The translations under genes were made by a program, and so were the position numbers. 64,000 bases of DNA from an uncultured Bacteroidales bacterium (GTDB lineage Bacteria > Bacteroidota > Bacteroidia > Bacteroidales > Muribaculaceae): positions 62,001 through 126,000 of the forward strand of contig CADAZN010000007.1 of NCBI GenBank assembly GCA_902792435.1, written 5' to 3'. The number at the start of each line of letters is the position of its first letter. Position 1 is the first letter of the stretch. Of the stretch, positions 11,335 through 28,995 are shown in pieces. The notes beneath the pieces were generated by a model. That model saw only the letters and a list, made by a program, of their open reading frames with translations, was not told where the DNA came from and did no database searches.

Positions 11335-11369
11335 GAAACCAAATATAGTAGTGGGGTAGATGTGTTGAT

Positions 11370-12491
11370 TTATTTCTTGATGAGGATTGTGATTTTGATT
11401 GCCACATCAAAGAGAATTATTTTAGCGTTTCCGTTACCTCTGATGTCTCTTATGGCATCGCTGAAGAGCTTGAGCATGCGTTCAACATTCTCCTCGTTTA
11501 TGAAACGAGCAAAGTTCTTGCTGAATTTTGATTCCTCGTCGGTCTCGTAATTGAGCGCTGGAGTTTGAAGGTTGTAGATATAGTTCTCTCTTACCATCCT
11601 TGAGGCGTAGTTCAAGAATCGTTGCGATTTCTCGCGCTTATATTCAGCAATAATCTCGCTCCAGCCCTTGAGGCCTGGGATGTCTCTCATGTAGGCGAGC
11701 CTCATGAGCTTGACAAACTGCTCGTGGAAAACGTGGGTCTCGCTCGAGTTATCCATGTTCTTGAGTGCCTGGAGCACATTCCCGTCGGCAGGTGCTGCAA
11801 GGGCAAGAGCCTCGCTCATTTCAATGCCTTTGACTCTTGAGATATAATCGGCAATCTGCTCAGTCGACGGTTTGCGCAGCTCTATCCTTTGAGTTCGGGA
11901 GTAGATGGTGGGAAGAATGTTCTTCACATTTGAAGTGGTGAGCAAGAAAATGCAATCCGACGATGGCTCCTCAATGAGCTTCAGGAGTTTGTTGGAGCAC
12001 TCTTTGTTCATCTTGTCGGCCTGCCACATCACCAGCACCTTGTATTGTGCTGTGTAGGCGCTGAGGCTCATTTTGCGCACGATGTTGTCGCTCTCGCTGG
12101 CGTAGATGAGGGGTTGAGCGTTGGTGTTGCCCAGCAGAGCGAGCCAGTGGTCATAGTCTTCGGCTATCACACCGTCTTCAATAAACTCTTTCCACTCGCG
12201 GTCAAAGTCCTCGCTCACGGGCTTTTCTCCTTTTTTTACAATAGGGTAGGAATAAAACGTGTCGGCATGGTTCATCGACTGGTGCTGAAGGCACGAAGGG
12301 CACATTCCGCATGAGTCGCCGCCAGTGCGGTTGGTGCAGTGAATATACTGCGACGTGGCTAGCGCAAGGGCGAGTATGGGAACTCCTGGTTCACCATGAA
12401 ACAGCAGTGCGTGGGCTATGTGACCGCTGTCCACCATGCGCCTAACTTGCTCTATGGCGCGTTCATTGCCTATTATATCGCTGAATTTCAT
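11370..12491 (-). CDS. holB: DNA polymerase III subunit delta'
   Basis: Clamp-loader subunit delta', 373 residues when started at 12491 (MKFSDIIGNERAIEQVRRMV). The open frame extends 65 codons upstream, but that extension crosses the promoter at 12526 and has no family character. Seen: a degenerate P-loop FHGEPGVP without the GKT lysine, as expected for non-ATPase delta'; a four-cysteine zinc site (C-x-T...CGMCPSC); the LLKLIEEPSSDCIFLLTT block with the conserved EEP; and the sensor-like SRTQRIELR. First gene of a two-gene unit with the AddB-like nuclease. Confidence 0.92.
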   Translation of the reverse strand: MKFSDIIGNERAIEQVRRMVDSGHIAHALLFHGEPGVPILALALATSQYIHCTNRTGGDSCGMCPSCLQHQSMNHADTFYSYPIVKKGEKPVSEDFDREWKEFIEDGVIAEDYDHWLALLGNTNAQPLIYASESDNIVRKMSLSAYTAQYKVLVMWQADKMNKECSNKLLKLIEEPSSDCIFLLTTSNVKNILPTIYSRTQRIELRKPSTEQIADYISRVKGIEMSEALALAAPADGNVLQALKNMDNSSETHVFHEQFVKLMRLAYMRDIPGLKGWSEIIAEYKREKSQRFLNYASRMVRENYIYNLQTPALNYETDEESKFSKNFARFINEENVERMLKLFSDAIRDIRGNGNAKIILFDVAIKITILIKK

Positions 12492-12525
12492 CTTCGATAA
12501 GTAAAAATAATTAGTTCTTAGACTA

Positions 12526-12556
12526 CAAAGATAGTGCAAGCCGAGAGCAGAACAAA
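12526..12556 (-). promoter_or_regulatory. Promoter of holB
   Basis: Minus strand TTTG (12556-12553), 19-nt spacer, TATCTTTG (12533-12526). The start codon at 12491 is 34 nt downstream; this fixes the shorter start for holB. Confidence 0.75.
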
Positions 12557-12606
12557 ATAATAAACGCAGTTTTTTTTTATTTTTTATGCCGAGGCATTTG
12601 ACAAAC

Positions 12607-12637
12607 AAGGCGCCCCCGCTAGATAGTGGGGCGCCTT
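12607..12637 (-). terminator. Hairpin after the subtilisin gene
   Basis: GC-rich 10-bp perfect stem (12607-12616 with 12628-12637). It lies 33 bp beyond the end of the minus-strand protease gene. The T-run is weak, so termination is inferred from position. Two copies of TTCTCTTGTCTTCTT-like sequence flank it at 12640-12671. Confidence 0.6.
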
Positions 12638-12669
12638 GAATTCTCTTGTCTTCTTGTTCTCTTGTCTTC

Positions 12670-15600
12670 TTAATTAAGCAGAACATTATAGATGACAGTG
12701 ACGTCGGCTGCTGTCACTTCACCATCTCCGTTTTGGTCACCGTTGATCATGTTCTCGGTGCTGCCATTAAGGAGGTAGTTGTAGAGGATGGTAATGTCCA
12801 CGGTGTTTACCTCGTCGTCACCGTTCACGTCGCCAGTGACGATATCGCCTCCACCAGCAAGAGTAGTAACCTCTATCATGTTGGACCAACCGCTAGCCAC
12901 CGAGCCATAGAGGGCCATCACATCATAATTGTAGGTGGTTTCGGGCAACAATCCAGTGACTTTATATTGATTGCTGGTAATACCATTAATTATGATTGGA
13001 TCTCCGGCTAAGCTAGTGTCGGTGAGGTCAACAGCGTAGATTTCCACGCCAGTGATTACCACGCGTTTCTTCTTGATGGTAGTGGCAAATCTAATCTTTT
13101 GTCCTGCTGCTTGAGCGCAGTCGAGTGCCACGATATAGCTACCCTCATTGCTTGAGGGAACGATAATGGTGTCGGTGCTAGTGCCGCAGCTCACTACTAA
13201 TGGGCAATCCACATCGGTGTCATAGGCGCGAGCAGTGAACTTAACGCTCACCTTGCCAGCGCTGCTAGTGAGGTCAACAGCTGGAGTTTGCAACACGCCA
13301 TTATAGCTTGTAGCGCCCAGGCGAATGCCACCCACGGCTTGATAAACGTAGGAAGCTGACCAACCTGCATTGTCGGTGTAGTTGTTGACCGAGCTGGCGA
13401 TATTGGTAGAACTCTCATTTACACATTTAGCAAATGTCTCTGTGAAGAACGGGCTAGCATCTATAGCAGGCGTGATGCGCAATGTGTAGCTGTTGGCAAA
13501 GGGACATGGGTCCCAGTTGGCGGTAAAGCTTGTGGAGCCAATGCCTGTAGCATCGGTAGCGTGTGGAGCCACGTTGTTAATAGTGGCTGAGCCAGTGAGA
13601 GCTACAGTCACGTTCTCGGCACCTGGGCTGCTGATTGTGATGTTGCCGTTGTGAGAGCCAGCAGCAGTTGGCGCATAGGTCACTGTCACGGTAACATAGC
13701 TGTTATCGTCGTAGGTGGCTGCAGGGATGGTGGCTGGACTCACGGTGAACAATTGGTTGTCGCTTGTGAGCGTAACGTCATCGGTAATAAACTCTCCGTA
13801 GAGACGGAATGTTTTGCTAGCTGTACCTCCAGCAAAGGCTGTGAAGTCGAGCGACTCGTAGCTTGTGCTCAGGGTTGGAGTCTTGGGTTGTGCAGTACCA
13901 TTCACTGTTATTGAAACCTGCTGGGCACCTGTACTGTTAAGGTTGATGGTGGCCGATGATGTGCCAGCTGCAGTGGGGATAAACTTGATGGTGAGGGTTG
14001 TACCAGCCATTATCTCAGCGTTAGTGAAGCTTGTAGGCTCAACACTGTAGATGCTTGGGCCAACCACGCTTACATTCACGCCCTGGGTGAGGTTGCGGCC
14101 TTCAAGATTCACTGTTGTGGTGATGGTGTCGCCCACATAACCACTCATATTGACCTCGGTCTTGCTGGCAATAATTCTTGGCAATGCGCTCTGCTGCAAG
14201 ATGTAAGAGATGCCGCTGAGGGCGTTGATGATGCCGTAGCCGCGCTGCTTGGGTGGGCTGGTGGGGTTGGTGTAAGCCGTAGCACTGTTGGCAATAGCGT
14301 CTTTCACACCATTGACATCAAGTTCGGGGTTGGCTTGAAGGTAGAGTGCAACCACGCCAGCTGCGATGGGAGTTGACATCGATGTGCCGCTCATCTCTCC
14401 CCACTTGTGAGTGCGACCATTATAGGATACTGAATAAGACGTACCGTACTGGCTGTTATAGGAGTCGTAACCGTTGAGCGAAGAAATCACAACGTGACCG
14501 GGGGCAGTGATGTATGGGTGATTAGCTCCCTTGACGTCGGTGCCGTAGCTTGAGAAATAGGCCACGTCGTTTACATTGTAATAGCCGTTATAGCTTGTGC
14601 GTGATGCCATAGCTCCCACACTGATGGTCTTGCTGCCGCAGATGTCGTCGCTCATGGTACCATCTTGTTGGCCAAGTGAGAGTGTGTATCCACTGATGTT
14701 TCCCGAAATTCCGATTCTAGATGCACTGCCACCTTCGCACCATGCGTCGATGGTGTTGCCAGCTGCACTGGTAACGATGTAGGCGAGGCGGTAGTTGCTG
14801 TTTTTCGCTCCTGTCATAGTGGGGTGGATGAAGATGTTCTTACGGTTGTTTGATGAGCTGAACGAGATTTCCACATTGCTGGAGCTGTTGAACCAGGTGC
14901 CGAAGCTGTTGAGCGTAGTGCTGCTGGTAATCTCATCGCTGGTATAAACGATTGCGCCAGTGTTGCGATTCACAACAAGCACTTTGAGCTTGAGTTGGTC
15001 GTTGGTGCGGCCCCAAATGTCCATATAGGCGGCCCCATAGTAAGAAGAGCCACCCACGTTGGCGGCACCAGTAGAGGTCTCGTGGATTATGGCAAAAGCA
15101 TCGCTGGCGCTCGAGAGAGCCTTTTTGGCATAGCCATAGGCATCGCCTTCGTTGCCCGAGGATAGCAGGATTACTGCACCATATTGGGTGGCGACTTGGT
15201 CATAGGCACGGCAAATGTAGCTCGACCCGTCGTGAGGTCCCATGTTGCTGCCTAAGCTGATGCTGATAACACAAGGTTTGCCTTGAGTCTTGGCATAGTT
15301 GGCGATGTATTTCACACTATTGGCGATAGAGGTTTGAGACAAGTTGTCGCCAAGTCCGCACATTACCAAGTCACAGTCGGGAGCCATGCCGGCATAGTTG
15401 CCAACCTGCGAGCCACCAGCGCAACCAGTGGTGTGAGTGCCATGACTCTCGCCGTTGGTATCGGTGGTGAGGGCAGCAATCTGCGCGGGAGTGGTGTAGT
15501 GATAACCACTGAGTGTTGTGGTGCCCACCTGTGGTGCTGTGCCACCGTTGGCACTTGTGGCATTGGGCAGATACACAGCTTTTACACGTGTATTGCCCGA

Positions 15601-16098
15601 AGAATCATAAAAGAAGCGGTGGTTGAAGTCCATACCAGTATCAATAACGCCAATCACCACGCCTGTGCCACGATAGTTCTGTGGCAACCCGTTGCTCGTG
15701 CCATTCCAAGCCTGATAAGCTTTGGTCACGTTCTTGGCTTGGTCGGTGTATTTTTGCGCAATAGGTGCTATGGCTACCTGCTTCACGATGTCGAGGCGGG
15801 CAACTTGCTCCACTTTGTTGATGGGCACGAGGGCGGTGACCACATCATCAAACTCGCCTGTGATGGTCACGCCCAGCGCCTTGAGTTGGGCTGTGGACTT
15901 GCCGTTGAGCATGATGAAGCAGTCCATGGTCTCCACGCCATTCACTGCCTTTGTGCTGCTGAATAGTTTCTTTTCGGCTTGCTGCGACGTGCCGTTGGCA
16001 CGGCTTTGCAAGAACAACTGTGTTGGTGCACTCAGCTTGTCGTTGGCGACCATCGCCAGCGACAACATCAGTGCCATCAGTAAAAATAGTCTTCTCAT
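12670..16098 (-). CDS. Secreted subtilisin-like (S8) serine peptidase with C-terminal dockerin-like pair
   Basis: A 1142-residue exported protease. Signal peptide about 1-18; propeptide-like region about 40-115; S8 catalytic domain about 145-630 with Asp153 (VIGVIDTGMD), His219 (ESHGTHTTG), oxyanion Asn316 (SSGNEGD) and Ser573 (SGTSMSTPIAAG). About 640-850 are two choice-of-anchor/immunoglobulin-like repeats (TSSATINLNS, NGNITISSPGAENVTVALTG), then a fibronectin-III-like segment, and a C-terminal dockerin-like pair (TGDVNGDDEVNTVDITILY, NGDQNGDGEVTAADVTVIY). All catalytic residues are intact. First by transcription order is the gene at 25.4 kb; this is the last of five adjacent dockerin genes. 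It is likely to act outside the cell on protein or on neighbouring exoproteins. Confidence 0.92.
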   Translation of the reverse strand: MRRLFLLMALMLSLAMVANDKLSAPTQLFLQSRANGTSQQAEKKLFSSTKAVNGVETMDCFIMLNGKSTAQLKALGVTITGEFDDVVTALVPINKVEQVARLDIVKQVAIAPIAQKYTDQAKNVTKAYQAWNGTSNGLPQNYRGTGVVIGVIDTGMDFNHRFFYDSSGNTRVKAVYLPNATSANGGTAPQVGTTTLSGYHYTTPAQIAALTTDTNGESHGTHTTGCAGGSQVGNYAGMAPDCDLVMCGLGDNLSQTSIANSVKYIANYAKTQGKPCVISISLGSNMGPHDGSSYICRAYDQVATQYGAVILLSSGNEGDAYGYAKKALSSASDAFAIIHETSTGAANVGGSSYYGAAYMDIWGRTNDQLKLKVLVVNRNTGAIVYTSDEITSSTTLNSFGTWFNSSSNVEISFSSSNNRKNIFIHPTMTGAKNSNYRLAYIVTSAAGNTIDAWCEGGSASRIGISGNISGYTLSLGQQDGTMSDDICGSKTISVGAMASRTSYNGYYNVNDVAYFSSYGTDVKGANHPYITAPGHVVISSLNGYDSYNSQYGTSYSVSYNGRTHKWGEMSGTSMSTPIAAGVVALYLQANPELDVNGVKDAIANSATAYTNPTSPPKQRGYGIINALSGISYILQQSALPRIIASKTEVNMSGYVGDTITTTVNLEGRNLTQGVNVSVVGPSIYSVEPTSFTNAEIMAGTTLTIKFIPTAAGTSSATINLNSTGAQQVSITVNGTAQPKTPTLSTSYESLDFTAFAGGTASKTFRLYGEFITDDVTLTSDNQLFTVSPATIPAATYDDNSYVTVTVTYAPTAAGSHNGNITISSPGAENVTVALTGSATINNVAPHATDATGIGSTSFTANWDPCPFANSYTLRITPAIDASPFFTETFAKCVNESSTNIASSVNNYTDNAGWSASYVYQAVGGIRLGATSYNGVLQTPAVDLTSSAGKVSVKFTARAYDTDVDCPLVVSCGTSTDTIIVPSSNEGSYIVALDCAQAAGQKIRFATTIKKKRVVITGVEIYAVDLTDTSLAGDPIIINGITSNQYKVTGLLPETTYNYDVMALYGSVASGWSNMIEVTTLAGGGDIVTGDVNGDDEVNTVDITILYNYLLNGSTENMINGDQNGDGEVTAADVTVIYNVLLN

Positions 16099-16158
16099 TG
16101 TTGTAAGATATTTTGATTATTAGTTATCGTGGAAAAGTGTTTTTAATGAATAAGCTTA

Positions 16159-16187
16159 CAAATTTATGAAAAATCACAATAACAAAG
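16159..16187 (-). promoter_or_regulatory. Possible promoter of the subtilisin gene
   Basis: Minus strand TTTG (16187-16184), 17-nt spacer (short), TAAATTTG (16166-16159), 61 nt before the start codon. The -7 box is exact, the spacing is not. Confidence 0.45.
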
Positions 16188-16218
16188 TCAATAAAAACTT
16201 TTTTTAACGAGTTCTATA

Positions 16219-16253
16219 CAAAAAAGGACAATTGAGAATCAACCCAATTGCCT
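16219..16253 (-). terminator. Terminator after the NAGPA-dockerin gene
   Basis: Minus-strand stem AGGCAATTG / CAATTGTCCT (plus 16225-16253, one bulge) followed by six T. It separates the NAGPA gene from the subtilisin gene. Confidence 0.65.
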
Positions 16254-16288
16254 CATTTTTGAAGAATCTGAGTGCAGTCAATAGAATA

Positions 16289-18688
16289 TCAACTGCTACC
16301 CAAAATAAAGTCATATACAGCAGTTATGTCGGCTGCTGTGATGTTGCCGTCGCCGTTCTGGTCACCATTGACTAGATGAGTTGTGGAATTGTTGAGCAAA
16401 AAGTCGTAGAGAGCTGTCACGTCGGCGGCAGTGATGACGCCATCGCCATTCACGTCGCCAGGAATCACCTGATGAAGTGGCGCATTGCGGTAGATTACCT
16501 CAAGTCCTGGAATTAGCATAGTGTATTGAGTTCCCGTGGTGGATTTCCCCATCGTGACCTGGATATAGGTGAGCAGGATGGGATAGTTGCTCATGTCGTC
16601 GGCGTCAATCCACTGGTCTATAGGTAAGTCGATTGTGGTCTCGACATTGGCAGGTACTGCCTCGGGGGTGACAGCCTGATAGCTGATTTTTCCACCCTTT
16701 GGACGCAAGGCGAAAGTGATGCCAGTGACGGGAGCCTCACATGGATTGATGCGCACTCGCAGAGTGTCGGGAAGGCTCCACAGCGTTATGTCTTTGTTCA
16801 TTCGCAGGTAGTTGGTGCGACCGCTAGAGCCAGTGTAAGTAACTTTTATTCCGTTGTCAAGTGGCTCGGTAACCACATTCTTGCCACCGCTCATTGAGAA
16901 ACTCCAGGTGCTCAAGTCCATCTCAGGGTCGAGGGGATAGACGCGCTGAACTGGCTTTTGAACAAATACTCTCATAGTCACCGACTGGTCGTCGATTACA
17001 CCTGTGACAGTAGCCTCACCATCGCGCACCCCTTGCAACTCGCCAGTGTTGGAGTCGATGACGACGATGCTCTCGTCGCTGCTGCTCCAAGTTAAAGCCT
17101 CAGGATCAAGAGGCATCATGTTCTCGCCAACTTGACTTTGAAGGTCGACGCGATAAGTGCGATAAGTGTCGGTTATGATTGAGTCGTTCTTCAACTCAAT
17201 GGCATCGCCGCTGCCAATGATGGTGAGTGGTGCGCTCACGCTGATGTCGCCCAGTGTGCCTGTGAGCATCGCTGTGCCGCTGCCTGTGGCAAAGATGGTG
17301 TTGCCGTCGCGTATTGTTCCCAACGACTCATCGCACGACAACTGCACGCCTTGAACATCGGTGTCGATGAGCATGCCATACTGGTTGTAGCCGTAGAAAC
17401 GAGGAGTATAAACGCCAAATTTGGGTACCTTTAGACTAAAATCTACAAATCGCAGCTCGGCAATAACGTCGTCGTCGGGAGCGTTGCTCACAACGAAGAG
17501 TCCGTTGCCATCGGCACGCTCGGTGCCGTCGCTGGGCTTGTTGCGAATGCCTAGCGCACTTGTGTAGAGAGTTGAAGAACCTCCACCATCCACATTCATG
17601 GCATCGGTGGCACCGGCATAGCGCATGATGTCGGCAAGCACGGTGGTTCTAACGCCATCGCTGATGAGCGAACGGCCGTCGACCACAAGAAAATAGACCT
17701 TGTTTCCACCATCGCTGTAGCCCACTGCCGAGCGAGGATGCAGCTGACTGGCGTCGCCACGTTCGCTCTCGGTGTCAAGCACCACGCCGTCGCCTAGAAT
17801 TTTGGGATTGCCCGATATCACCTGCTCGGGCTCAACGCTCAGGTCGCCAAATGTCCATGTTGGAGAGATGGTGATGGTGTCGCCTATCTGCAAGGTGTTG
17901 ACCACTGTAGCTGCCGAGCCACGGCCTCGAATCACATACTTTCCTGCCGGTATGGTCATGTCGCCGGCTGTGCTAGTGTCGCTCTCAACCAACATCTTGT
18001 AAGGGCGGGCGCTTTCAAACTTCTCGCCCTCGGCAAGGCGCGCCACAAGCTCTGTGCCGCTGTTGGTCTGGTCGGTGCTGCCATAGTAGCGGTCGGTGTA
18101 AATTACTATCTTGTTGTTGCATTCACTCGAGTAGGTGTTAACACCACCAAGTGCGGCAGTTTGCCCCGATGGAGTGGTTAGCGTGCCGCCAAAGACAAAT
18201 GGGTTGACATAGATGCCCTCATCCTTGTCGACGATGAAATTCTTGTAGAGCGCGGCATTGTTGCGAGCGCGGTAAATCTCGCCGTCAACCACCGTAGCCC
18301 CCACTGGCGTGCCAACTATTGAAACGCCACGGCCTGTGGTGCCGCTGGTGTTGAAGAAGTCGGCGTTGATACCGGCAAAGTAGCGCCTGCCGGGCTCGCT
18401 CTTGCGCTCGGCCATCGCCGAGACTTTTTCGTTGCCGGCAAGCTTGTCGGTGGCACACACCCCCGACAGCGATAGCCATGGGTTGCTCATGTCGATGGTG
18501 CAATAGAACACACGCAATTTTCCTGTCTCGTTGTGAAACCATAGCGAGGTTTGCGTGGTGCCTGGCCCCACCTGGTTGTGGAACAAGGTGTCGACTTGAT
18601 ACTCCACCCCACGCAACGTCCAAGTGTCGCTTGCCGAAGCACAGATTGCCAAGATGGCAAACAATGCAAACAAACTGATTTTCTTCAT
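16289..18688 (-). CDS. Secreted phosphodiester glycosidase (NAGPA) family protein with Big-like domain and dockerin-like pair
   Basis: A 799-residue exported protein. Signal peptide 1-19 (MKKISLFALFAILAICASA). Residues about 60-390 match the NAGPA family, which includes the enzyme that uncovers mannose-6-phosphate by removing GlcNAc from a phosphodiester: seen are YFAGINADFFNTSG, RSAVGYSDGGNKVYFLVVDG and the signature MNVDGGGSSTLY. Then a bacterial Ig-like (Big_2) stretch about 500-580 (LTWSSSDESIVVIDSNTGEL), a beta-sandwich region, and a C-terminal dockerin-like pair (PGDVNGDGVITAADVTALY, NGDQNGDGNITAADITAVY). The substrate in bacteria is unknown; phosphodiester-linked sugars on glycans or cell-wall polymers are plausible. 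Upstream neighbour lies 50 bp away. Confidence 0.88.
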   Translation of the reverse strand: MKKISLFALFAILAICASASDTWTLRGVEYQVDTLFHNQVGPGTTQTSLWFHNETGKLRVFYCTIDMSNPWLSLSGVCATDKLAGNEKVSAMAERKSEPGRRYFAGINADFFNTSGTTGRGVSIVGTPVGATVVDGEIYRARNNAALYKNFIVDKDEGIYVNPFVFGGTLTTPSGQTAALGGVNTYSSECNNKIVIYTDRYYGSTDQTNSGTELVARLAEGEKFESARPYKMLVESDTSTAGDMTIPAGKYVIRGRGSAATVVNTLQIGDTITISPTWTFGDLSVEPEQVISGNPKILGDGVVLDTESERGDASQLHPRSAVGYSDGGNKVYFLVVDGRSLISDGVRTTVLADIMRYAGATDAMNVDGGGSSTLYTSALGIRNKPSDGTERADGNGLFVVSNAPDDDVIAELRFVDFSLKVPKFGVYTPRFYGYNQYGMLIDTDVQGVQLSCDESLGTIRDGNTIFATGSGTAMLTGTLGDISVSAPLTIIGSGDAIELKNDSIITDTYRTYRVDLQSQVGENMMPLDPEALTWSSSDESIVVIDSNTGELQGVRDGEATVTGVIDDQSVTMRVFVQKPVQRVYPLDPEMDLSTWSFSMSGGKNVVTEPLDNGIKVTYTGSSGRTNYLRMNKDITLWSLPDTLRVRINPCEAPVTGITFALRPKGGKISYQAVTPEAVPANVETTIDLPIDQWIDADDMSNYPILLTYIQVTMGKSTTGTQYTMLIPGLEVIYRNAPLHQVIPGDVNGDGVITAADVTALYDFLLNNSTTHLVNGDQNGDGNITAADITAVYDFILGSS

Positions 18689-18738
18689 GTTATCCCTAAA
18701 TATGATTATGCATTCTAATAAGCATTATGCATTGTGCA

Positions 18739-20166
18739 TTAATTTGAGCCTCCTAACAAGACGGAGTAGACGGCAGTGATGTCGGCAGCAGTGATGATGC
18801 CGTCGCCTGTTTGGTCGCCATTGACGATGTGCGACTCGTCGTTGTTGAGCAGGAAGTCGTAGAGGGCGGTGATGTCGGCAGCGGTGACCACGCCATCACC
18901 GTTCACGTCGCCAGGCACAGCCACAGGACCATCGGGCTCAACGCCTGCGCCAATCTTGTAAACTCCCATACCGTTGTAGGCCTTGAATGTGAGCAGAGTG
19001 ATTTCCTCGTTGCCTTTTTCATCGTAGCCTTTCTCGACGGCGATGCTGTGCACACGCAATCCACCATCGTTAATCTTGCCCACGCTGTCGGCAGGAAGTT
19101 GCCAGTATTTTGTCATTCCCTCGAGCATGTCGCCGTCGCCAAGCTCACACACGTTAATTTGGCAGCCATTGCCGTTGCCGTTCATGTCGCTACGGACATA
19201 GGTAAAGAAATGGCGGTCATCGAGCGTGAACTCGTTCATGCCGTTGGCGGTATAGCTTTTCTGCCTCAACTCTGCGGGGACATTCTCAAAGCTGTCGATT
19301 ACATCGCCGTCGACCGAGTAGAGCACAGGTCCCTCGTCGGATCCATCGATGTAGAAGTACTCCCCGCTGTAGCGTGTGTCCTCATCATTTCCAAGCAACA
19401 TTTTCACCACTGGTGCCATAGCAAATCCAACCCTGCTCTCGGGGTAGAAATTGGTGAAGTCCATATAGGGGTCGCCACTGAAGCCTCCCTCCCAGGTGTC
19501 GATGTCTCCACCTTGCTCGTTGTGCCAGCGATAGACTGTGGGCTTGCCAGGATTGTTGCTGTCGTGACCCACTGCCATGATGTTGCACTCGGCCTGCTCA
19601 AGCGTGAGGTCGCCAATGAGGTCAAGGTAATCGGTGCGATAAGGCACTTCGCCTTTGCTCATGTTGGTCACCAGAGTCATTTCGGCACTCTCGGTGTCGA
19701 CTTGATAGATGGGAATCTCGGTTGCCGCAGCGCTGGTCATGGGTGCCACCCAAATGTGCCCGAAGCTGTCGCAACCAATGCAGGTGTTGCCCAAGAACAC
19801 CCCGTAAGGATTGCCATTGAATGTGAGCTCCAAATCTTTGGTTGGCTCGCCGGTGAGAGCGTCAAAGCAGTGAATGACGCCCTGGAGGATGGTGTCGTTC
19901 TTGCCTGTTTCGGGATTGGGGATTATCACCTGCTTTTCCTGACTGCGCGACACATAGACGACGCCGCCCGTCATCGTGGCAGTGCGGGCATTGGTATGGC
20001 AGATGGGTGACGAAATGTAAGCATTGCCTGCATGCACACGGTCTAGCATCCACAGGTTTTTCACTCCTATGCCGTTCACTTTGGCATAGGTCTGGCCGTC
20101 GGTCACAGCCCAACTGCTCAAGGCGGACATAACAGCCACAATAGAAAGTAGTAATAATTTTTTCAT
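18739..20166 (-). CDS. Secreted propeller-like protein with dockerin-like pair (copy 1)
   Basis: A 475-residue exported protein of unknown function. Signal peptide about 1-20. The body consists of repeated strands of the form V-Y-x-x-x-(F/V)-D-A-L-T-G-E (GVIHCFDALTGEPTKDLELT, IPIYQVDTESAEMTLVTN, LYSVDGDVIDSFENV), suggesting a beta-propeller. It ends in a dockerin-like pair (PGDVNGDGVVTAADITALY, NGDQTGDGIITAADITAVY). It is clearly paralogous to the next gene upstream: shared blocks include VNGIGVKNLWMLDR / VNGIGMRNLWLLDR, RTDYLDL(I/V)GD(L/I)TLEQAECN, SGDPYMDF and DEDTRYSGE. No catalytic motif recognised; binding or scaffold role possible. Confidence 0.85.
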   Translation of the reverse strand: MKKLLLLSIVAVMSALSSWAVTDGQTYAKVNGIGVKNLWMLDRVHAGNAYISSPICHTNARTATMTGGVVYVSRSQEKQVIIPNPETGKNDTILQGVIHCFDALTGEPTKDLELTFNGNPYGVFLGNTCIGCDSFGHIWVAPMTSAAATEIPIYQVDTESAEMTLVTNMSKGEVPYRTDYLDLIGDLTLEQAECNIMAVGHDSNNPGKPTVYRWHNEQGGDIDTWEGGFSGDPYMDFTNFYPESRVGFAMAPVVKMLLGNDEDTRYSGEYFYIDGSDEGPVLYSVDGDVIDSFENVPAELRQKSYTANGMNEFTLDDRHFFTYVRSDMNGNGNGCQINVCELGDGDMLEGMTKYWQLPADSVGKINDGGLRVHSIAVEKGYDEKGNEEITLLTFKAYNGMGVYKIGAGVEPDGPVAVPGDVNGDGVVTAADITALYDFLLNNDESHIVNGDQTGDGIITAADITAVYSVLLGGSN

Positions 20167-20225
20167 GTTATTATAGTGATTAGGGATTAGTGATGAGTGA
20201 TTAAAACTAGGAACTATTTACACAA

Positions 20226-20257
20226 AGGGGGGGAGAATAACCAATCCTCCACCCCCT
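20226..20257 (-). terminator. Weak hairpin between the two propeller paralogs
   Basis: Imperfect G/C-rich stem (seven G at 20227-20233 against CTCCACCCCC) downstream of the minus-strand gene at 20291. The following T-run is poor, so read-through into the next gene is likely. Confidence 0.35.
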
Positions 20258-20290
20258 AAAAACTTTTATGTTATGAATAAAGAAAGTGCG

Positions 20291-21733
20291 TTATTCGCCA
20301 CCGAGCATGATGGTGTAGACAGCAGTGATGTCGGCTGCAGTGATGTTGCCGTCGCCCGACTGGTCGCCATTGACGATGTGTGACTCGTCGTTGTTGAGCA
20401 GGAAGTCATAGAGGGCGGTAATGTCGGCTGCAGTTACGGTGCCGTCGCCGTTCACGTCGCCAGGCACGCTTAGTGGAGTTGGATCATCGGGTGTTACACC
20501 TTCACCTACAATATAAACGCCCATGCCATTGTAGCACTTGTACTCAAACACGAGCACGGCTTCCTCGTCACCCTCTTCGGTGTAGTCGGTAACTACGGGA
20601 TGGATGCGCAGGCCGCTATCACTGGTTTGTCCTTGGCCGTCGGCAGGGAAGGTCCAGTAGCGTTGCATACCGCTGAACGACATGCCCTCGCCAAGCTCGC
20701 AAATGTTAACCTGGCATGAGTTGGGAGCGTCATACTGAGCAATAGAGTAAACAATGAAGTTGCGATCGCCGAGTTTGAACTCGCCAATGCCGTTAGTGCC
20801 AACCTTAGGCATCAACAGGCTGTCGGCTGCCATTTCCTCTTGAGAGAGGCTGCCGAATCCGTCAACGATGGTGCCATCGCTTGAGTAAAGGGTGGGCACT
20901 GTGGTGAAGCCGTCGATGTAGAAGTTCTCGCCGCTATAGCGGGTGTCTTCGTCCTCGCCAAGCACAAAGCGGCATGCGGGAGCATAACCCCATTGGGTTT
21001 GGCTCTCGGGATACATCTCCACGAAGTCCATATAGGGGTCACCGCTGAAGAAGCCTTCCCAGGTGTCGGGGTAGCCGCCCTGGTCGTTGTGCCAAGCATA
21101 AACGGTGGGCACTTGTGAGCCGGGAGTCATCACGTTACACTCGGCCTGCTCGAGGGTGATATCGCCCACAAGGTCGAGATAGTCGGTGCGGGCAATCACG
21201 TCGCCCTTGTCGAGATTGGCAACGAGGGTCAATTCGCCAGTCTCGGTGTTCAGTTGATACAGAGGCACCTCGGCGGTCTTCTCGCTGGTGTAGGGGGCAA
21301 CCCACACATGGCCAAAGTTGTCCTTGCCAATTGAGTTCACGCCAAGGAACGTTCCGTAGGGCTCGCCGTTGAGTGTCACATCGAGTGGAGCCATTTGCTC
21401 GCCAGTCATCGCGTCAAAGCGATAAATCACGGCACCCATGATGGTGTCGTTGCCGTTGGCGCCAGGAATAATGTATTGCTTCGCCTCGCTGCGTGCAACA
21501 TATACCACACCATCTTGCAGCACCGCTGTGCGCGCCTTGGTGTTACACCATTCAAAGTCGGTTTGAAGCTCATTAACGCCATAGTGGAAGCGGTCGAGCA
21601 GCCACAGGTTGCGCATGCCTATGCCGTTCACCTTTTCATAGCCGTTTGGGTCTTTTTTCAACAGATGGCCAGCAGCCCATGCGCTAGAGCAAGCCATTGC
21701 TACCAATGTTAGAACGAGTAATAATTTCTTCAT
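20291..21733 (-). CDS. Secreted propeller-like protein with dockerin-like pair (copy 2)
   Basis: A 480-residue exported protein, paralog of the gene at 18739. Signal peptide MKKLLLVLTLVAMACSSAWA. Internal strands such as AVIYRFDAMTGEQMAPLDVT and VPLYQLNTETGELTLVAN suggest a beta-propeller. The C-terminus has the dockerin-like pair (PGDVNGDGTVTAADITALY, NGDQSGDGNITAADITAVY). The block EFKLGDRNFIVYSIAQYD aligns with EFTLDDRHFFTYVRSDMN of copy 1. The Cys in the signal (ACSS) could look like a lipobox but is in a weak context. The pair probably arose by tandem duplication and may bind different ligands. Confidence 0.85.
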   Translation of the reverse strand: MKKLLLVLTLVAMACSSAWAAGHLLKKDPNGYEKVNGIGMRNLWLLDRFHYGVNELQTDFEWCNTKARTAVLQDGVVYVARSEAKQYIIPGANGNDTIMGAVIYRFDAMTGEQMAPLDVTLNGEPYGTFLGVNSIGKDNFGHVWVAPYTSEKTAEVPLYQLNTETGELTLVANLDKGDVIARTDYLDLVGDITLEQAECNVMTPGSQVPTVYAWHNDQGGYPDTWEGFFSGDPYMDFVEMYPESQTQWGYAPACRFVLGEDEDTRYSGENFYIDGFTTVPTLYSSDGTIVDGFGSLSQEEMAADSLLMPKVGTNGIGEFKLGDRNFIVYSIAQYDAPNSCQVNICELGEGMSFSGMQRYWTFPADGQGQTSDSGLRIHPVVTDYTEEGDEEAVLVFEYKCYNGMGVYIVGEGVTPDDPTPLSVPGDVNGDGTVTAADITALYDFLLNNDESHIVNGDQSGDGNITAADITAVYTIMLGGE

Positions 21734-21936
21734 GTTGTGAAATGTTTTGGATATTAGTATTGTGTTGATAAATAAATTCTTTACAACCTACAAAGAAAAT
21801 AAAAACCAAATTATTCACCAAATTTTTCTCACACTTTTTCGGTGAAATGTGACAAAATTACACATTATTCAAAATATAAGTGCCAAAATGTTATTAATTG
21901 GTTTCGGAATCACTTTGTACTATGGCATCTCATCAA

Positions 21937-21977
21937 TAACACAAGGCAGAACCTTGACAGTGGGCTGCCTTGTGTTA
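21937..21977 (-). terminator. Hairpin downstream of the GHL10-dockerin gene
   Basis: 13-bp perfect inverted repeat (21937-21949 with 21965-21977), loop 15 nt, 9 bp past the end of the minus-strand gene at 21986. No T-run follows, so it may be a processing or stalling hairpin rather than a classical terminator. The remainder of 21734-21985 shows no gene. Confidence 0.5.
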
Positions 21978-21985
21978 ATTGTGTG

Positions 21986-24900
21986 TCATTTTTTACCATG
22001 TTTTGCACGGTTTCCCAAGATGATGTTGTAGACAAAGGTGACATCAGAGCTGGTGATGTTCCCGTCGCCATTTTGGTCGCCATTGACGAGGCCTGTGGCG
22101 TCGTTGTTGAGCAGGTAACTGTAGAGCGCAGTCACGTCGGCTGCTGTCACTTCGCCGTCGCCGTTCACGTCGCCAGGCACCGCCACAGCCACTGTCACGG
22201 TGTATTTGGCGAGACCGTTGCCTGGCACATACATGTAGATGAACATCTCATTGCTCTTGTCGCCAGGCACAGCAACACAAGGGGTGCTCATCGTTGTGCT
22301 GTTCACCACTCCCATGCCATTCTTGGGCAACGTCCACAGTGGGGTAAATCCAGCAAAGTCTTGTCCGTCAGGATTTACTGCGAGCTTGAAGTTGTGCCCC
22401 TCGGCGGTTTGGTAGTCGCCGTTAGAATAGAGCATGAAGTAAGAATTTCCAAGTTTGAGCATGTCGAAGCCGTCGTTGGCTGTGCCTACGCTCATCAGCG
22501 CACTATTATTGGCAAAGCTATCGAGAATCTCGCCGTTGGTCATGCTGTAGCAAGTGGGCTCAATGCCCGAGCCATGCACTATCACGCGGTCGCTGTCAAG
22601 GGCCTTGATGCGTGGCGAGGTGCCTAAGTTGGCGGCACTGGTGGGATACATGGCATTGACGATGACCACTTTGGTTGCTGACACACTCCCTCCAGCGATT
22701 GTCCAGCGAATAATCTCATTACTGCGTGAAAGTGCGGCAAATACTTCAAAATTACCCGATGTTACATCGCCGAGCACGTCGATGTGGTCGATGCGACCCG
22801 ATGACTCGCTGGTCGAGAGGGTAGCACGATGTGTCACTGCTCCGTTGCTTGGATTCACGCTGTAAATCACGAGCGGAGTGTTGTTGATTTTGAGCAGCAT
22901 GTTGCTGATGAGCAGGTTTCCTGCATCGTCAACAAGCACGTTGTTGCAAGGGAAATAGTCGCCTTGCACCTCGGCTGGCAGCTCAAGATCGCGCAGCCAC
23001 TCGCCAGTCTTGGCGTTATACACACGCAAGTAACAGTCGGCATTTGACGCGTTCTTGCTGCGGCCTGTGAGGTAGACATTGTCGCCCAGCACCGCAAACG
23101 AGCGGTTGAACGTGCCGTAATTCTCTTGCTCGAAGTTATTATAATTGCTCTTCACCGAGCGAATCCAGTTGTTGGTAACCGACACGCCATCGATAGGTGC
23201 GTAAGTGTCGTTGTCAACGTCTATCTTGCGCACATAGCCGGGCTCGGTGGCGCCAGTGGTGATTTCGGTGATGGTGAACGTGCGGGTTTCGCTCACATTG
23301 TGGTCACAGCCAGCAGCGGTGGTGCTCACGCGCCAGTAATAGGTTCCTTCGCCTAGCAGCGCTATCACGCACTGCAATGTGAGATTTCCGTTCTCGCTTT
23401 GGAGATAGTTGCTGGTTTGCACAACATTGGTGAACACCGCGTCACTTGCCACTTCAAGTTTGTAGGTGTCGGCTCCCACATTGGCGACTACAAATTTGAA
23501 ATTGTCGTCAATCTCAGCGCCGTTCTCGGGATAAATCAAGGTGGCCTGTGGAGCAAGGTCGCGCTGTGCCGTCATGAACGAGGCTACATCGCTCACTTTG
23601 TCAAACTTGCCGGTCTCAATTGTTGTCACGCGCCAGTAATAGCGGGTTGCCGATGCAAATGTGCTCAGGTCGAGGGTGACGTGATTCTCGGCGATGCCAT
23701 TCTGGCTGATAAGCACGTTGTTGAATGCGTTGTCGCTGGCCACTTCAATTTTGAAGGTCGCGCCAGGAACCGCAGTCCATGAAAATTCTTGTGTCCACTG
23801 TGCCAATGCGTCGTTGATGGGCGACAGCAGTGTCACTTGTTGGGCCTCGCCAGCAGGGGCGTTAAGATAGGCAGGGGCATACTCGAAGTTATAGCCGTCA
23901 ACGCTTGTCACTGCAAACCAATAGCCAGTCAAGTATTCACTGGCGAGGGTCACACTGGTGTTGTAGGTCACGGCCACCAGGTAGTCGCTCTTGATGCCCT
24001 CAAACTGTTGGCTTGTGATAGTGCTCACGTCCACACTTGTTGGAATGGCATAAACGGCATATTTCACAAGTTCTCCATCAACGAAATCCCATGACAGAGT
24101 GTTGCCGTTTAGAGCAAGATTCTCGGGGGTGTCGAGGTTGTCTTTGGGTTTCCACTCTAATGCTGGTGGTAACGCCTTTTTGGGAAATATGGTCTGTACT
24201 AAATAGTTGCCCAAGCCAGTCATGCGTGGGCCATTGATGTAGCGCGATGAGTAGAAGTTGACGCCTGGAGCGTTGTTCTCGGTGTATTGACGGCTGAGTT
24301 GAACCTGTGCCACAATCTCTTGCCAGCTAGTGGTGGTGTTGCCGTCATTGTCCATGAAGTAGATGTTTTGGCTGGCATAGTGGTGACGGTTGAAATGCTT
24401 GGCAATGTAGCTCCACCATTGGGTCAGCGGGCCAAAGGGATTGGTCGAGTGGTTGCGCTTCCAGTAGAGCTGGGGCGAGATGTAGTCAATAGTGCCTTCC
24501 TCGAGCCATGCCAATGGGTCGCTGAAGAGCGAAGAGTACTGCCAGTCGCTGCCTGTGGGGCAAGGATTCACACCATGCTGCGATGCACTGGTCGAGGCAG
24601 TGCCTGCCACACCGGCGGGGCCTATCGCAAATCGCACCTGAGGCTTCACCATCTGAACCATGTTATACACGTCGGCAACCATTTGGTTTACCTGGGCGCG
24701 GCGCCAGTTGGCAAAGGTCATCGTGGTGCCGCTGTTGCGCCACAGCTGGTAGTCGGCGGCTGAGCTGTTGGTGGGTATGCCGCTAGGGTAGAAGTAGTCG
24801 TCGAAGATGATGCCGTCGATGTCGTAGTTCTCAATCATTTCGCGGCACACGTTCACGATGCGCTCACGCGAGGCGGGCAAGCCGGGATTAAGCACTGTGG

Positions 24901-25396
24901 TAGTGGTGCCACTGCTGTTGGTGTAGGTGAGCAGGATGCCCGAGTTCTGGAGTGCCTGGTCTTGAGCGGTGTTCCAGGTTGTTGGGCCGCCATTAGCATA
25001 GCGATAAGGATTGACCCATGCGTGACACTCGATACCGCGCTTGTGGCACTCCTCAACGGCAAACGCCAATGGATCCCAACCGGGGTTGGTACCACGTGTG
25101 CCAGTGAGGTAACTTGACCATGGCTCATAGCTCGACTGGTACATGGCGTCGCACATCGAGCGCACCTGAATGCACACTGCGTTCATATTTGTGTTTGCAA
25201 AGCCATCGAGATAGTCAATCAGTGACTGTTTTTGGCGTGCTATCACAGCTGCGCCGGTGCCGCGCTCGCTTGGCCAGTCAATATTAGAAACTGTGGCGAG
25301 CCATGCGGCGCGCATCTCGCGCTTTTGCTCCTCGGCCTTGATGCCTGGCAGCATCAGCACAAGGGCAATAATGATAAAGGTTATTTTTTTTGCCAT
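21986..25396 (-). CDS. GHL10 (glycosyl hydrolase-like 10) secreted protein with propeller-like half and dockerin-like pair
   Basis: About 1136 residues from the Met at 25396 (MAKKITFIIIALVLMLPGIKA, a good signal peptide); another ATG in frame lies at 25414. The N-terminal domain about 25-400 is GHL10/DUF187: REMRAAWLATVSNIDWPS, DGIIFDDYFYP and IDYISPQLYWKRNHS are family blocks. Then fibronectin-III-like modules about 415-720 (FSWTAVPGATFKIEVASD, ATRYYWRVTT, GTYYWRVSTT). Residues about 725-1070 form a propeller-like domain that parallels the two preceding paralogs (RIDHIDVLGDVTSGNFEVFA versus RTDYLDLIGDLTLEQAECN). C-terminal dockerin-like pair PGDVNGDGEVTAADVTALY and NGDQNGDGNITSSDVTFVY, followed by a basic tail RAKHGKK. 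Substrate unknown; GHL10 proteins are linked to peptidoglycan-type or other glycans in some bacteria. Confidence 0.88.
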   Translation of the reverse strand: MAKKITFIIIALVLMLPGIKAEEQKREMRAAWLATVSNIDWPSERGTGAAVIARQKQSLIDYLDGFANTNMNAVCIQVRSMCDAMYQSSYEPWSSYLTGTRGTNPGWDPLAFAVEECHKRGIECHAWVNPYRYANGGPTTWNTAQDQALQNSGILLTYTNSSGTTTTVLNPGLPASRERIVNVCREMIENYDIDGIIFDDYFYPSGIPTNSSAADYQLWRNSGTTMTFANWRRAQVNQMVADVYNMVQMVKPQVRFAIGPAGVAGTASTSASQHGVNPCPTGSDWQYSSLFSDPLAWLEEGTIDYISPQLYWKRNHSTNPFGPLTQWWSYIAKHFNRHHYASQNIYFMDNDGNTTTSWQEIVAQVQLSRQYTENNAPGVNFYSSRYINGPRMTGLGNYLVQTIFPKKALPPALEWKPKDNLDTPENLALNGNTLSWDFVDGELVKYAVYAIPTSVDVSTITSQQFEGIKSDYLVAVTYNTSVTLASEYLTGYWFAVTSVDGYNFEYAPAYLNAPAGEAQQVTLLSPINDALAQWTQEFSWTAVPGATFKIEVASDNAFNNVLISQNGIAENHVTLDLSTFASATRYYWRVTTIETGKFDKVSDVASFMTAQRDLAPQATLIYPENGAEIDDNFKFVVANVGADTYKLEVASDAVFTNVVQTSNYLQSENGNLTLQCVIALLGEGTYYWRVSTTAAGCDHNVSETRTFTITEITTGATEPGYVRKIDVDNDTYAPIDGVSVTNNWIRSVKSNYNNFEQENYGTFNRSFAVLGDNVYLTGRSKNASNADCYLRVYNAKTGEWLRDLELPAEVQGDYFPCNNVLVDDAGNLLISNMLLKINNTPLVIYSVNPSNGAVTHRATLSTSESSGRIDHIDVLGDVTSGNFEVFAALSRSNEIIRWTIAGGSVSATKVVIVNAMYPTSAANLGTSPRIKALDSDRVIVHGSGIEPTCYSMTNGEILDSFANNSALMSVGTANDGFDMLKLGNSYFMLYSNGDYQTAEGHNFKLAVNPDGQDFAGFTPLWTLPKNGMGVVNSTTMSTPCVAVPGDKSNEMFIYMYVPGNGLAKYTVTVAVAVPGDVNGDGEVTAADVTALYSYLLNNDATGLVNGDQNGDGNITSSDVTFVYNIILGNRAKHGKK

Positions 25397-25434
25397 TTTT
25401 CTTATGTTTATCAAGTTATTACGATTTTACCCCA

Positions 25435-27495: not shown

Positions 27496-28995
27496 ATGAA
27501 AAAGATAATTATTGTGGCATTGCTCATGATGTGGGCTGCCACGGGATATTGTGCTAGTGGAATCGCTGGAGATGTTAACGGTGACGGAACTGTGACTGCT
27601 GCCGACATTACTGCGCTCTATAACTTTCTGCTCAACAGCGATGAGAGCAGTGTTGTGAACGGCGACCAGAACGGCGACGGCGTCATCACCAGTGCCGACA
27701 TCACGGCTGTATATGATATTCTCCTGAGTGGTGAGGAACCTGGGCCAGACATCGACGACTTCAATGTTAACGTGGTGTATGATGGCAATAATGCTACTGT
27801 CACAGTTGCCAAGAACATCAAGAACTCTATGACTGTGAAAGTGAATGGTGCGCACGTCAACATCGTTGCCGACCCAGCACTCCAGGATTCAATAATCTAT
27901 AACTTAAGCGGCTCGACAAGCAACGGTTCGTTCTACATGGACGGCGACTACAAGTGCTTTGTCAACCTCACCGACCTCACAATCCACAACCCCGACAGTG
28001 CGGCAATCAACATCGACAATGGCAAGCGCATCGACCTCACTCTCAATGGCACCAACGCCCTGACCGATGCCACTGGCGCGGCTCACAAAGCTTGTCTTTA
28101 CATTAACGGCCACACCGTGATAGCAGGCAGTGGAACATTGACACTCACAGGCAACACTAAGCACGCCTATTTCAGCGACGAGTACACTCGCATCACTGGC
28201 GGAACCATCACCGTGCTCAACTCGGTGAGCGACGGAATGCACGTGAATCAGTACTTCCAGATGGATGGTGGCACCGTTACCATCAACACCACTGGCGGCG
28301 ATGGCATCGACGTGGGATGCACCAAGGATGAAACCGACACCAACAACGGCCAGTTCATCATTAATGGTGGAACTATCGACATTACCACCAGCGCCAGCAC
28401 TGTGAAGGGAATCAAGTGTGAATCGATAATGACTATCGCTGGAGGTAGCATCACGGCCAGAACAAGTGGCGGTGCAATGTATGATGCCACAGTTGACGAC
28501 GTCAGCAGTTGTGCGGCCATCAAGTGCGATAGCACGTTCAACATGACCGACGGCACCATCTACCTCATCAGCACCGGCATTGGAGGTAAAGGCTTGAATA
28601 CCGATGGCAGCGTGAACATCAGCGGCGGCACATTCACCGCTGTGACAACGGGCGATGTCTATGAGTACTCATCAACCAGCGACACCAAGGCTGGAGGAAT
28701 CAAGGCCGACGGAACCATCATTATTAGCGGTGGCACAGTGAAGGTCGCTGCTAGCAAATGGGATGCTCGCGCTTTCAACGGCAAGTGCGGATTCTTCACC
28801 AACGGTGGCTACATCCTTGGCATAGGCGGTAAGTCGTCGACAGTGAGTCCTGGCTACACCCAGACCTACAAATACTTGCGCAACCAGGTGGTTACCGGTG
28901 GCACAACCTATACTGCCGAGGGCGTTTCTTTCGATATCCCCTCGTTCTACAACAACGCTGCCGCCCTTGTAGTCGTTTCTACTCCTAATCTTTAA
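27496..28995 (+). CDS. Secreted Cthe_2159-type (carbohydrate-binding domain) protein with N-terminal dockerin-like pair
   Basis: A 499-residue exported protein. Signal peptide 1-20. Residues about 24-85 are a dockerin-like pair placed at the N-terminus (AGDVNGDGTVTAADITALY, NGDQNGDGVITSADITAVY). Residues about 90-499 resemble the Cthe_2159 family of calcium-binding parallel beta-helices that bind cellulose or pectin-like polysaccharides: repeated coils such as GGTITVLNSVSDGMHVNQ, GGTVTINTTGGDGIDVGC, GGTIDITTSASTVKGIKCES and GGSITARTSGGAMYDATVDD. No catalytic residues recognised; a binding protein is more likely than an enzyme. Own promoter. Confidence 0.88.
   Translation: MKKIIIVALLMMWAATGYCASGIAGDVNGDGTVTAADITALYNFLLNSDESSVVNGDQNGDGVITSADITAVYDILLSGEEPGPDIDDFNVNVVYDGNNATVTVAKNIKNSMTVKVNGAHVNIVADPALQDSIIYNLSGSTSNGSFYMDGDYKCFVNLTDLTIHNPDSAAINIDNGKRIDLTLNGTNALTDATGAAHKACLYINGHTVIAGSGTLTLTGNTKHAYFSDEYTRITGGTITVLNSVSDGMHVNQYFQMDGGTVTINTTGGDGIDVGCTKDETDTNNGQFIINGGTIDITTSASTVKGIKCESIMTIAGGSITARTSGGAMYDATVDDVSSCAAIKCDSTFNMTDGTIYLISTGIGGKGLNTDGSVNISGGTFTAVTTGDVYEYSSTSDTKAGGIKADGTIIISGGTVKVAASKWDARAFNGKCGFFTNGGYILGIGGKSSTVSPGYTQTYKYLRNQVVTGGTTYTAEGVSFDIPSFYNNAAALVVVSTPNL

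Follow-up and report, generated by a model that had tools for sequence, protein, structure and literature searches.

The stretch of DNA described here (hereafter the window) covers 64,000 nucleotides of contig CADAZN010000007.1 (assembly GCA_902792435.1, positions 62,001 to 126,000) from an uncultured Bacteroidales bacterium of the family Muribaculaceae, and it contains five adjacent minus-strand open reading frames (ORFs) for exoproteins that end in a dockerin. A first-pass annotation, made from the letters alone, had described five neighbouring minus-strand exoproteins with C-terminal dockerin-like modules of type I; the ORFs were confirmed, and the Pfam family Dockerin_1 (PF00404) exceeded its cut-off of 22.9 bits in all five, at 33.5-44.9 bits, which is far above chance. 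We consider it probable that the five serve as cargo in a genome-wide assembly of cohesins and dockerins, where the dockerin would take the role of the sorting domain of the type IX secretion system (T9SS). The five genes, and the dockerins to which the text returns, are the following.

12670-16098, minus strand: subtilase (Peptidase_S8; PF00082, E 3.8e-31) exoprotein with fn3 and a C-terminal dockerin (PF00404, E 4.7e-11, residues 1089-1140)
16289-18688, minus strand: NAGPA (phosphodiester glycosidase; PF09992, E 2.2e-28) exoprotein with Big_2 and a C-terminal dockerin (PF00404, E 9.1e-10)
18739-20166, minus strand: 'propeller-like' secreted protein with no assigned fold; C-terminal dockerin at residues 418-472, the only Pfam match
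20291-21733, minus strand: paralogue of the preceding protein; C-terminal dockerin at residues 424-478, the only Pfam match
21986-25396, minus strand: GHL10 exoprotein (PF02638, E 1.8e-56) with a C-terminal dockerin (PF00404, E 1.3e-11); the start is ATG, and a TTG lies further out at 25414
12673-12837, minus strand: S8 protease dockerin (residues 1088-1142), which differs most from the other four in a pairwise comparison over 55 residues
16298-16462, minus strand: NAGPA dockerin, both calcium loops of which align to the CelS dockerin (2mte, E 2.7e-4)
22013-22177, minus strand: GHL10 dockerin, placed from the module coordinates

The repeat motif quoted in the first-pass annotation was found exactly in both repeats of three of the five modules, and the S8 protease (repeat 1 GDVNGDDEVNTVDITILY, repeat 2 EVTAADVTVIY) and the GHL10 protein (repeat 2 ITSSDVTFVY) deviate from it. 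Likewise, the modules had been called near-identical; over 55 residues the pairwise identity runs from 29 to 49, and the S8 module is an outlier at 29-31, so the description best suits the remaining four. When the NAGPA dockerin was compared with solved sequences, the best match was an EF-hand calcium-binding protein (E 1.4e-4), followed by the CelS dockerin and then others, which is expected because the loops are EF-hand-like. Identity between the two 'propeller-like' proteins is 55%; a comparison of one of them, 18739-20166, with GHL10 showed homology to the latter's C-terminal half at 30% identity. One unrecognised domain has copies in this pair and in the GHL10 C-terminal half, with no confident Pfam match beyond the dockerin.

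Across the genome (2.96 Mb), Dockerin_1 gave 107 matches at E<=1, 99 of them over the cut-off; the scoring covered 150 of 159 candidates. The 101 frames that we read all match a dockerin profile, and 91 of them reach at least 40 bits with a dockerin profile of our own and are called clear below; a Sec signal peptide was found by a simple rule in 83 dockerin frames, and a strict pattern detected both calcium loops in 62 of the 91. As a side observation, ten dockerin proteins stand in one run on a 33.5-kb contig (C38), where two neighbouring plus-strand genes (L040:6530-7993 and L040:8050-9741) have similar starts and C-terminal dockerins without the second helix (...AADVTALLH, ...AADVTANA), which are perhaps decaying modules.

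The first-pass annotation had recognised no cohesin in the window, and this was correct: genome-wide searches with PF00963 and with profile A1, which was built from cohesin repeats of the same genome, place none there, and the idea of a cohesin inside the window was rejected. Its suggestion of a novel domain type as the possible partner did not survive the genome-wide search that it had itself proposed, as recognisable cohesins are present outside the window. PF00963 matched six stretches, of which five, in two frames, exceed its cut-off; two of the five lie in the scaffoldin C22 and three in the scaffoldin C1 (two of these only together with their neighbours). Profile A1 found 15 cohesins, 11 of them on three scaffoldins, and among PDB sequences it ranked cellulosomal cohesins at the top, weakly (E 0.0037-0.012). 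The three scaffoldins are built as follows.

C1, 913 aa: six cohesins and a dockerin
C22, 1132 aa: three cohesins, five Big_2 domains and a dockerin
C9, 424 aa: two cohesins, one Big_2 domain and half a dockerin

The PF00963 cut-off is exceeded for C22 (hmmscan E 3.5e-18), for C1 in the genome search only, and not for C9; the cohesins of C1 were called from the PF00963 genome search, profile A1 and structure models, and those of C9 from profile A1. Four further proteins have the order dockerin, cohesin, T9SS-like tail at their ends (Doc-Coh-tail proteins), and three of them carry BspA leucine-rich repeats (LRR). An AlphaFold model of a Doc-Coh-tail fragment (pLDDT 83.7) drew only cohesin chains at Foldseek ranks 1-20, the best being 2jh2 (E 1.6e-6, TM 0.76 by target and 0.42 by query). 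For a fragment comprising the fifth and sixth cohesins and the dockerin of a scaffoldin (Coh5-Coh6-Doc, pLDDT 90.9), the top match was the cohesin dyad 3l8q (E 2.8e-10), with a TM of 0.31 over both domains, and the single cohesin 6kgd reached a TM of 0.77 by target. These predicted structures support a cohesin fold in both fragments. The named relatives of a scaffoldin are metagenome-assembled genomes (MAGs) of Muribaculaceae, Prevotellaceae and Bacteroidales, several of them from ruminants, in agreement with the earlier view of the host as a gut Bacteroidales.

Each of the three scaffoldin genes adjoins a gene of the Doc-Coh-tail type, at a distance of 40 bases for C1, 88 for C22 and 52 for C9. 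The C1-type pair is kept in nine of ten related MAG loci (L122-L130), one of them with a scaffoldin of four cohesins, and the tenth locus, at 33% identity, is different and does not keep it; pairs of Doc-Coh-tail and Coh-Doc genes also occur at three loci of two other genomes of the genus, G187 and G193. The neighbour of C22 is the following.

L212:653-5023, plus strand: subtilase of 1457 aa; both its dockerin and its cohesin are weak, and it ends in a T9SS-like tail

With such modules and a tail, this protease may itself belong to the scaffold. We also observed that, where L122-L130 are long enough, two secreted proteins (about 266-271 and 628-659 aa) with ends resembling T9SS tails by eye are encoded upstream of the Doc-Coh-tail and scaffoldin genes, and that in G187 a Cohesin-Dockerin protein with a C-terminus that looks FGE-sulfatase-like by eye (L204:3297-4697) adjoins a Coh-Doc-Coh-tail gene.

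This gene content suggests a cellulosome-like machine in a Bacteroidales, with about 90 dockerin-bearing secreted proteins and the cohesin scaffolds in the same genome. We infer from the sequences that dockerins and cohesins bind, that the complex is located at the surface, and which cohesin takes which dockerin. The cargo would be exported by Sec and then fold, and its calcium-loop dockerin would dock into the cohesins of C1, C22 and C9; the dockerin of the scaffoldin would in turn dock into the cohesin of the neighbouring Doc-Coh-tail protein, and the T9SS-type tail of that protein would both transport the assembly and anchor it. Passage of the cargo through the outer membrane might take place after docking or in some other way. 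The first of these possibilities amounts to piggyback T9SS secretion, in which tail-less dockerin cargo would bind a tail-bearing cohesin protein in the periplasm and be exported with it, so that one T9SS carrier would export loaded scaffolds. Such export would explain why tail-less scaffoldins adjoin Doc-Coh-tail genes, and we put it forward tentatively, as a possible but rather doubtful version of events.

The strongest pointer to the function of the dockerins is their alternation with T9SS tails in homologous exoproteins. Among the matches listed, all 18 C10 proteases of the genus from outside the present genome end in a dockerin by our own profile, and the Pfam cut-off was exceeded in 8 of the 8 tested. 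For comparison, we took one strong match, chosen and non-random, from each of 20 other genera, and none of these 20 C10 proteases has a dockerin by the same profile. Instead, TIGR04183 (E<=0.01) matched 12 of these 20 versus 0 of the 13 scanned from the genus; a tail pattern matched 10 of the 20, and the remainder are tail-like by eye. Because the genus is one clade, Fisher values computed on its first 13 C10 proteins overstate independence. The present genome has 15 C10 matches among the matches listed, of which not all were checked, and eight C10 proteases lie within its scanned dockerin proteins. Among S8 proteases from outside the genus, 0 of 17 have a dockerin, and their tails were judged by eye. 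As far as these sequences go, the dockerin and the T9SS tail are alternatives at the same place, and the best explanation would be that in this genus dockerins replaced individual T9SS tails and that the cargo is held on cohesin scaffolds. The T9SS itself is indicated by SprA_N in 18 of 18 genomes tested, including all 16 sampled from the genus, and the present genome has sprA.

An alternative is that the assembly forms in the periplasm, with Sec-only cargo bound to cohesin proteins and never surface-exposed. It is in keeping with the absence of a convincing lipobox from the dockerin cargo, a loose pattern being found in 5 of 101 frames, each with an equally good-looking signal-peptidase I site, and also with the finding that, beyond the Doc-Coh-tail proteins, a T9SS tail was met on one 864-aa protein alone (L066; TIGR04183 30.5 bits) among those scanned, which were not all. 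However, proteases with a pro-inhibitor, BspA LRR proteins and CBM26 amylases, all kinds of cargo found here, are usually extracellular. In addition, the C10 homologues of the sister genera bear T9SS-type tails, and two multi-cohesin proteins of a genome from another Bacteroidales family (G200) have TIGR04183 tails over the cut-off. A purely periplasmic complex is therefore unlikely in our judgement.

It has also to be asked whether the dockerins are themselves sorting tails that lack a cohesin partner and are either cleaved or recognised by an export machinery, the cohesins serving otherwise; the first-pass annotation had named cleaved tails without a partner as fatal to the idea of an assembly. 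Position speaks on both sides. In 66 of the 91 clear dockerins the module lies at the extreme C-terminus, with 0-10 residues left, and the C10 dockerins occupy the very site of the T9SS-type tails in the sister genera. Nevertheless, 12 of the 91 are internal and 13 are N-terminal, placements that are impossible for a C-terminal signal, and the latter, immediately behind the signal peptide, disfavour cleaved tails. The retention of both calcium loops in most clear dockerins and the cohesins in all 16 genomes of the genus are further points against sorting tails, and we hold this explanation to be quite improbable. The window contains two more dockerin proteins, both on the plus strand and both with the module directly after the signal peptide.

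27496-28995, plus strand: Cthe_2159-family carbohydrate-binding protein (PF14262, E 4.8e-47) with an N-terminal dockerin at residues 24-78 (PF00404, E 5e-10)
43205-45118, plus strand: 637-aa secreted protein with an N-terminal dockerin at residues 22-76 (Dockerin_1, 42.1 bits)

All 16 sampled genomes of the genus have at least 30 dockerins and 3-18 cohesins, and one of them, assembled as a single contig, has 36 dockerins over the cut-off, so the system is not a binning error; contamination or a chimeric bin was accordingly disfavoured. In 198 genomes of the family, dockerins (E<=0.001) were found in 83 and A1 cohesins in 60. Outside the genus the dockerin counts are mostly none to two, with G001 and G042 (9 dockerins, 13 cohesins) as exceptions, and there the two modules tend to go together: the 182 genomes concerned divide into 35 with both modules, 32 with dockerins only, 9 with cohesins only and 106 with neither. 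Dockerins (E<=1e-4) were present in 82 of 295 genomes sampled from the order; in 12 of them, besides the present one, the count, which was capped at 21 per genome, is at least 10, so uniqueness to the genus was rejected. A1 cohesins occur in 7 of these 12 dockerin-rich genomes versus 0 of 12 hand-picked dockerin-free genomes. The two G200 proteins mentioned above are a separate observation: they are adjacent and very long (L173:2477-9877 and 10022-13741), contain Listeria/InlB-type repeats, and have eight and five A1 cohesin stretches and TIGR04183 tails scoring 30.4 and 31.8 bits, above the cut-off of 23. PF00963 had no match in the one that was tested. Such proteins would be scaffoldins carrying their own anchor.

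Several observations weigh against the proposed cohesin-dockerin assembly. Eleven scaffoldin cohesins are few for about 90 cargo proteins, hmmscan gave no PF00963 match in C1 or C9, and the dockerin of C9 is a half module. The Coh5-Coh6-Doc model also draws many integrins and Fabs in Foldseek, a generic beta-sandwich similarity. Of the Doc-Coh-tail proteins, one has no TIGR04183 match in its tail, and the tails of the others reach 12.8-21 bits, short of the cut-off of 23. The subtilase next to C22 has a dockerin of 17.5 bits against the Pfam cut-off of 22.9 and a cohesin that was detected solely with a profile in which it was included, so the pairing of genes is secure for two of the three scaffoldins; moreover, a scaffoldin is missing from a locus of the present genome (L078, contig C19) and from one of G173 (L203), each with two Doc-Coh genes, and one locus of G017 (L175) has no such pair. 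The dockerins of the scaffoldins form no class of their own, as their 'ATSDV' type is common to several C38 proteins that are not scaffoldins, and a division into cargo and scaffoldin dockerins was rejected for this reason. The S8 proteases of the genus are mixed (n=10), with a dockerin in five, an end that is tail-like by eye in four and one cut by the contig. Finally, G001, from another genus (g2) of the same family, has at least 30 dockerins and no A1 cohesin, either because sequence is missing from an assembly that is 85% complete in 230 contigs or because there is another partner, and five of the 12 dockerin-rich genomes of other families have no A1 cohesin and a sixth has one weak match. 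These dockerin-rich genomes, and a mechanism other than cohesin binding that is raised for dockerin-only rumen MAGs in the accessible part of PMC9763041, would suit dockerins that bind ligands other than their own cohesins, as suggested for those of Ruminococcus albus 8, but cohesins occur in the present genome and in all 16 sampled members of the genus, which leaves this explanation very little probability.

The proposed assembly can be further characterized by its cargo. Pfam scans covered 96 of the 101 dockerin frames, namely a cargo set of 88 proteins (82 scanned at E<=1e-5 and 6 at E<=0.1) and 8 others; Dockerin_1 itself reached E<=1e-5 in 75 of the 82. Among the 88 there are peptidases (Peptidase_C10 8, S8 3, M6 2, C39_2 1), CotH (8), FGE-sulfatase (7) and LRR_5 (15) proteins, a minority of starch families (alpha-amylase 4, CBM26 5, all in the set of 82), and smaller numbers of NAGPA (2), GHL10 (2), Amidase_3 (2), Cthe_2159 (2), GH53 (1) and GH113 (1). 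No GH5, GH9 or GH48 was matched by Pfam in these 88 proteins, which agrees with the first-pass annotation that cellulases are not part of the cargo. Of two marks of a cellulosome, scaffoldins with several cohesins are present in C1, C22 and C9, and a cargo of plant cell-wall hydrolases including cellulases was not seen in the 88 proteins. To judge from its domains, the cargo seems to be aimed at proteins, starch and adhesion and does not look like that of a cellulosome in the strict sense.

The likeness to the cellulosomes of Firmicutes (Clostridium thermocellum, Ruminococcus flavefaciens, Acetivibrio) lies in type I dockerins on many secreted proteins, in multi-cohesin scaffoldins that end in a dockerin, in separate cohesin proteins that could serve as anchors, and in solved cohesin structures that match the modelled cohesins. 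The differences are a Bacteroidales host with an outer membrane, a cargo lacking the cellulase families named above, and T9SS-like tails, below the TIGR04183 cut-off, as the presumed anchor, whereas the anchors of Firmicutes cellulosomes are SLH domains or sortase motifs. The amylosome of Ruminococcus bromii has dockerin-bearing amylases. Here, too, dockerins are found with alpha-amylase (4 of 82) and CBM26 (5 of 82), but proteases, CotH, FGE-sulfatase-like and LRR proteins together outnumber them. Some cargo kinds recur in Firmicutes and are listed for a rumen Ruminococcus in the consulted part of PMC7480376, namely LRR_5-dockerin, dockerin-peptidase and dockerin-Cthe_2159 proteins.

The mucinolysome of Limousia, as presented in the available sections of PMC12997984 (March 2026), is likewise a gut cohesin-dockerin system that is not directed at cellulose and has dockerin-bearing peptidases, but its host is Gram-positive and its dockerin enzymes are mostly mucin glycoside hydrolases. 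The mucin families named in those sections had no Pfam match in our 88 dockerin proteins, although some of these families may have no Pfam model. The same sections report that both modules occur in 4333 human-gut MAGs, 78 of which are Bacteroidetes, call the finding surprising and leave it to future work, and state that no cellulosome has been described outside Firmicutes. Earlier counts came from camel rumen bins (up to 11 dockerins per Bacteroidetes bin, and 1-2 cohesins in two such bins; PMC6071333) and from cockroach single-cell genomes (dockerins in Alistipes and Bacteroides; PMC10266427); unlike the present work, the excerpts of both give no scaffoldin architecture, anchor or tail exchange for Bacteroidetes. 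Neither this cohesin-dockerin architecture nor the tail exchange was found in the passages retrieved from the open-licence literature searched. The genus offers a concrete and testable case for the Bacteroidetes question, as it has about 90 clear dockerin proteins together with scaffoldins, candidate anchors and a tail swap seen in protease homologues; it may help to account for the dockerins on non-fibrolytic proteins in rumen metagenomes, as described in the part of PMC3396655 that was available, and, if the proposed assembly is true, it would supply a cohesin-dockerin toolkit functional behind an outer membrane.

The closest comparison within the phylum is with the T9SS cargo of Bacteroidota (TIGR04183/PF18962). 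A rumen member of the Bacteroidetes with T9SS cellulases has neither cohesin nor dockerin, according to the extract of PMC5831590. The genus shares with such cargo the sprA of the present genome and, in the C10 homologues of its sister genera, the tails themselves (12 of 20); it differs in that its own C10 proteases bear a dockerin instead, in 18 of 18 among the matches listed.

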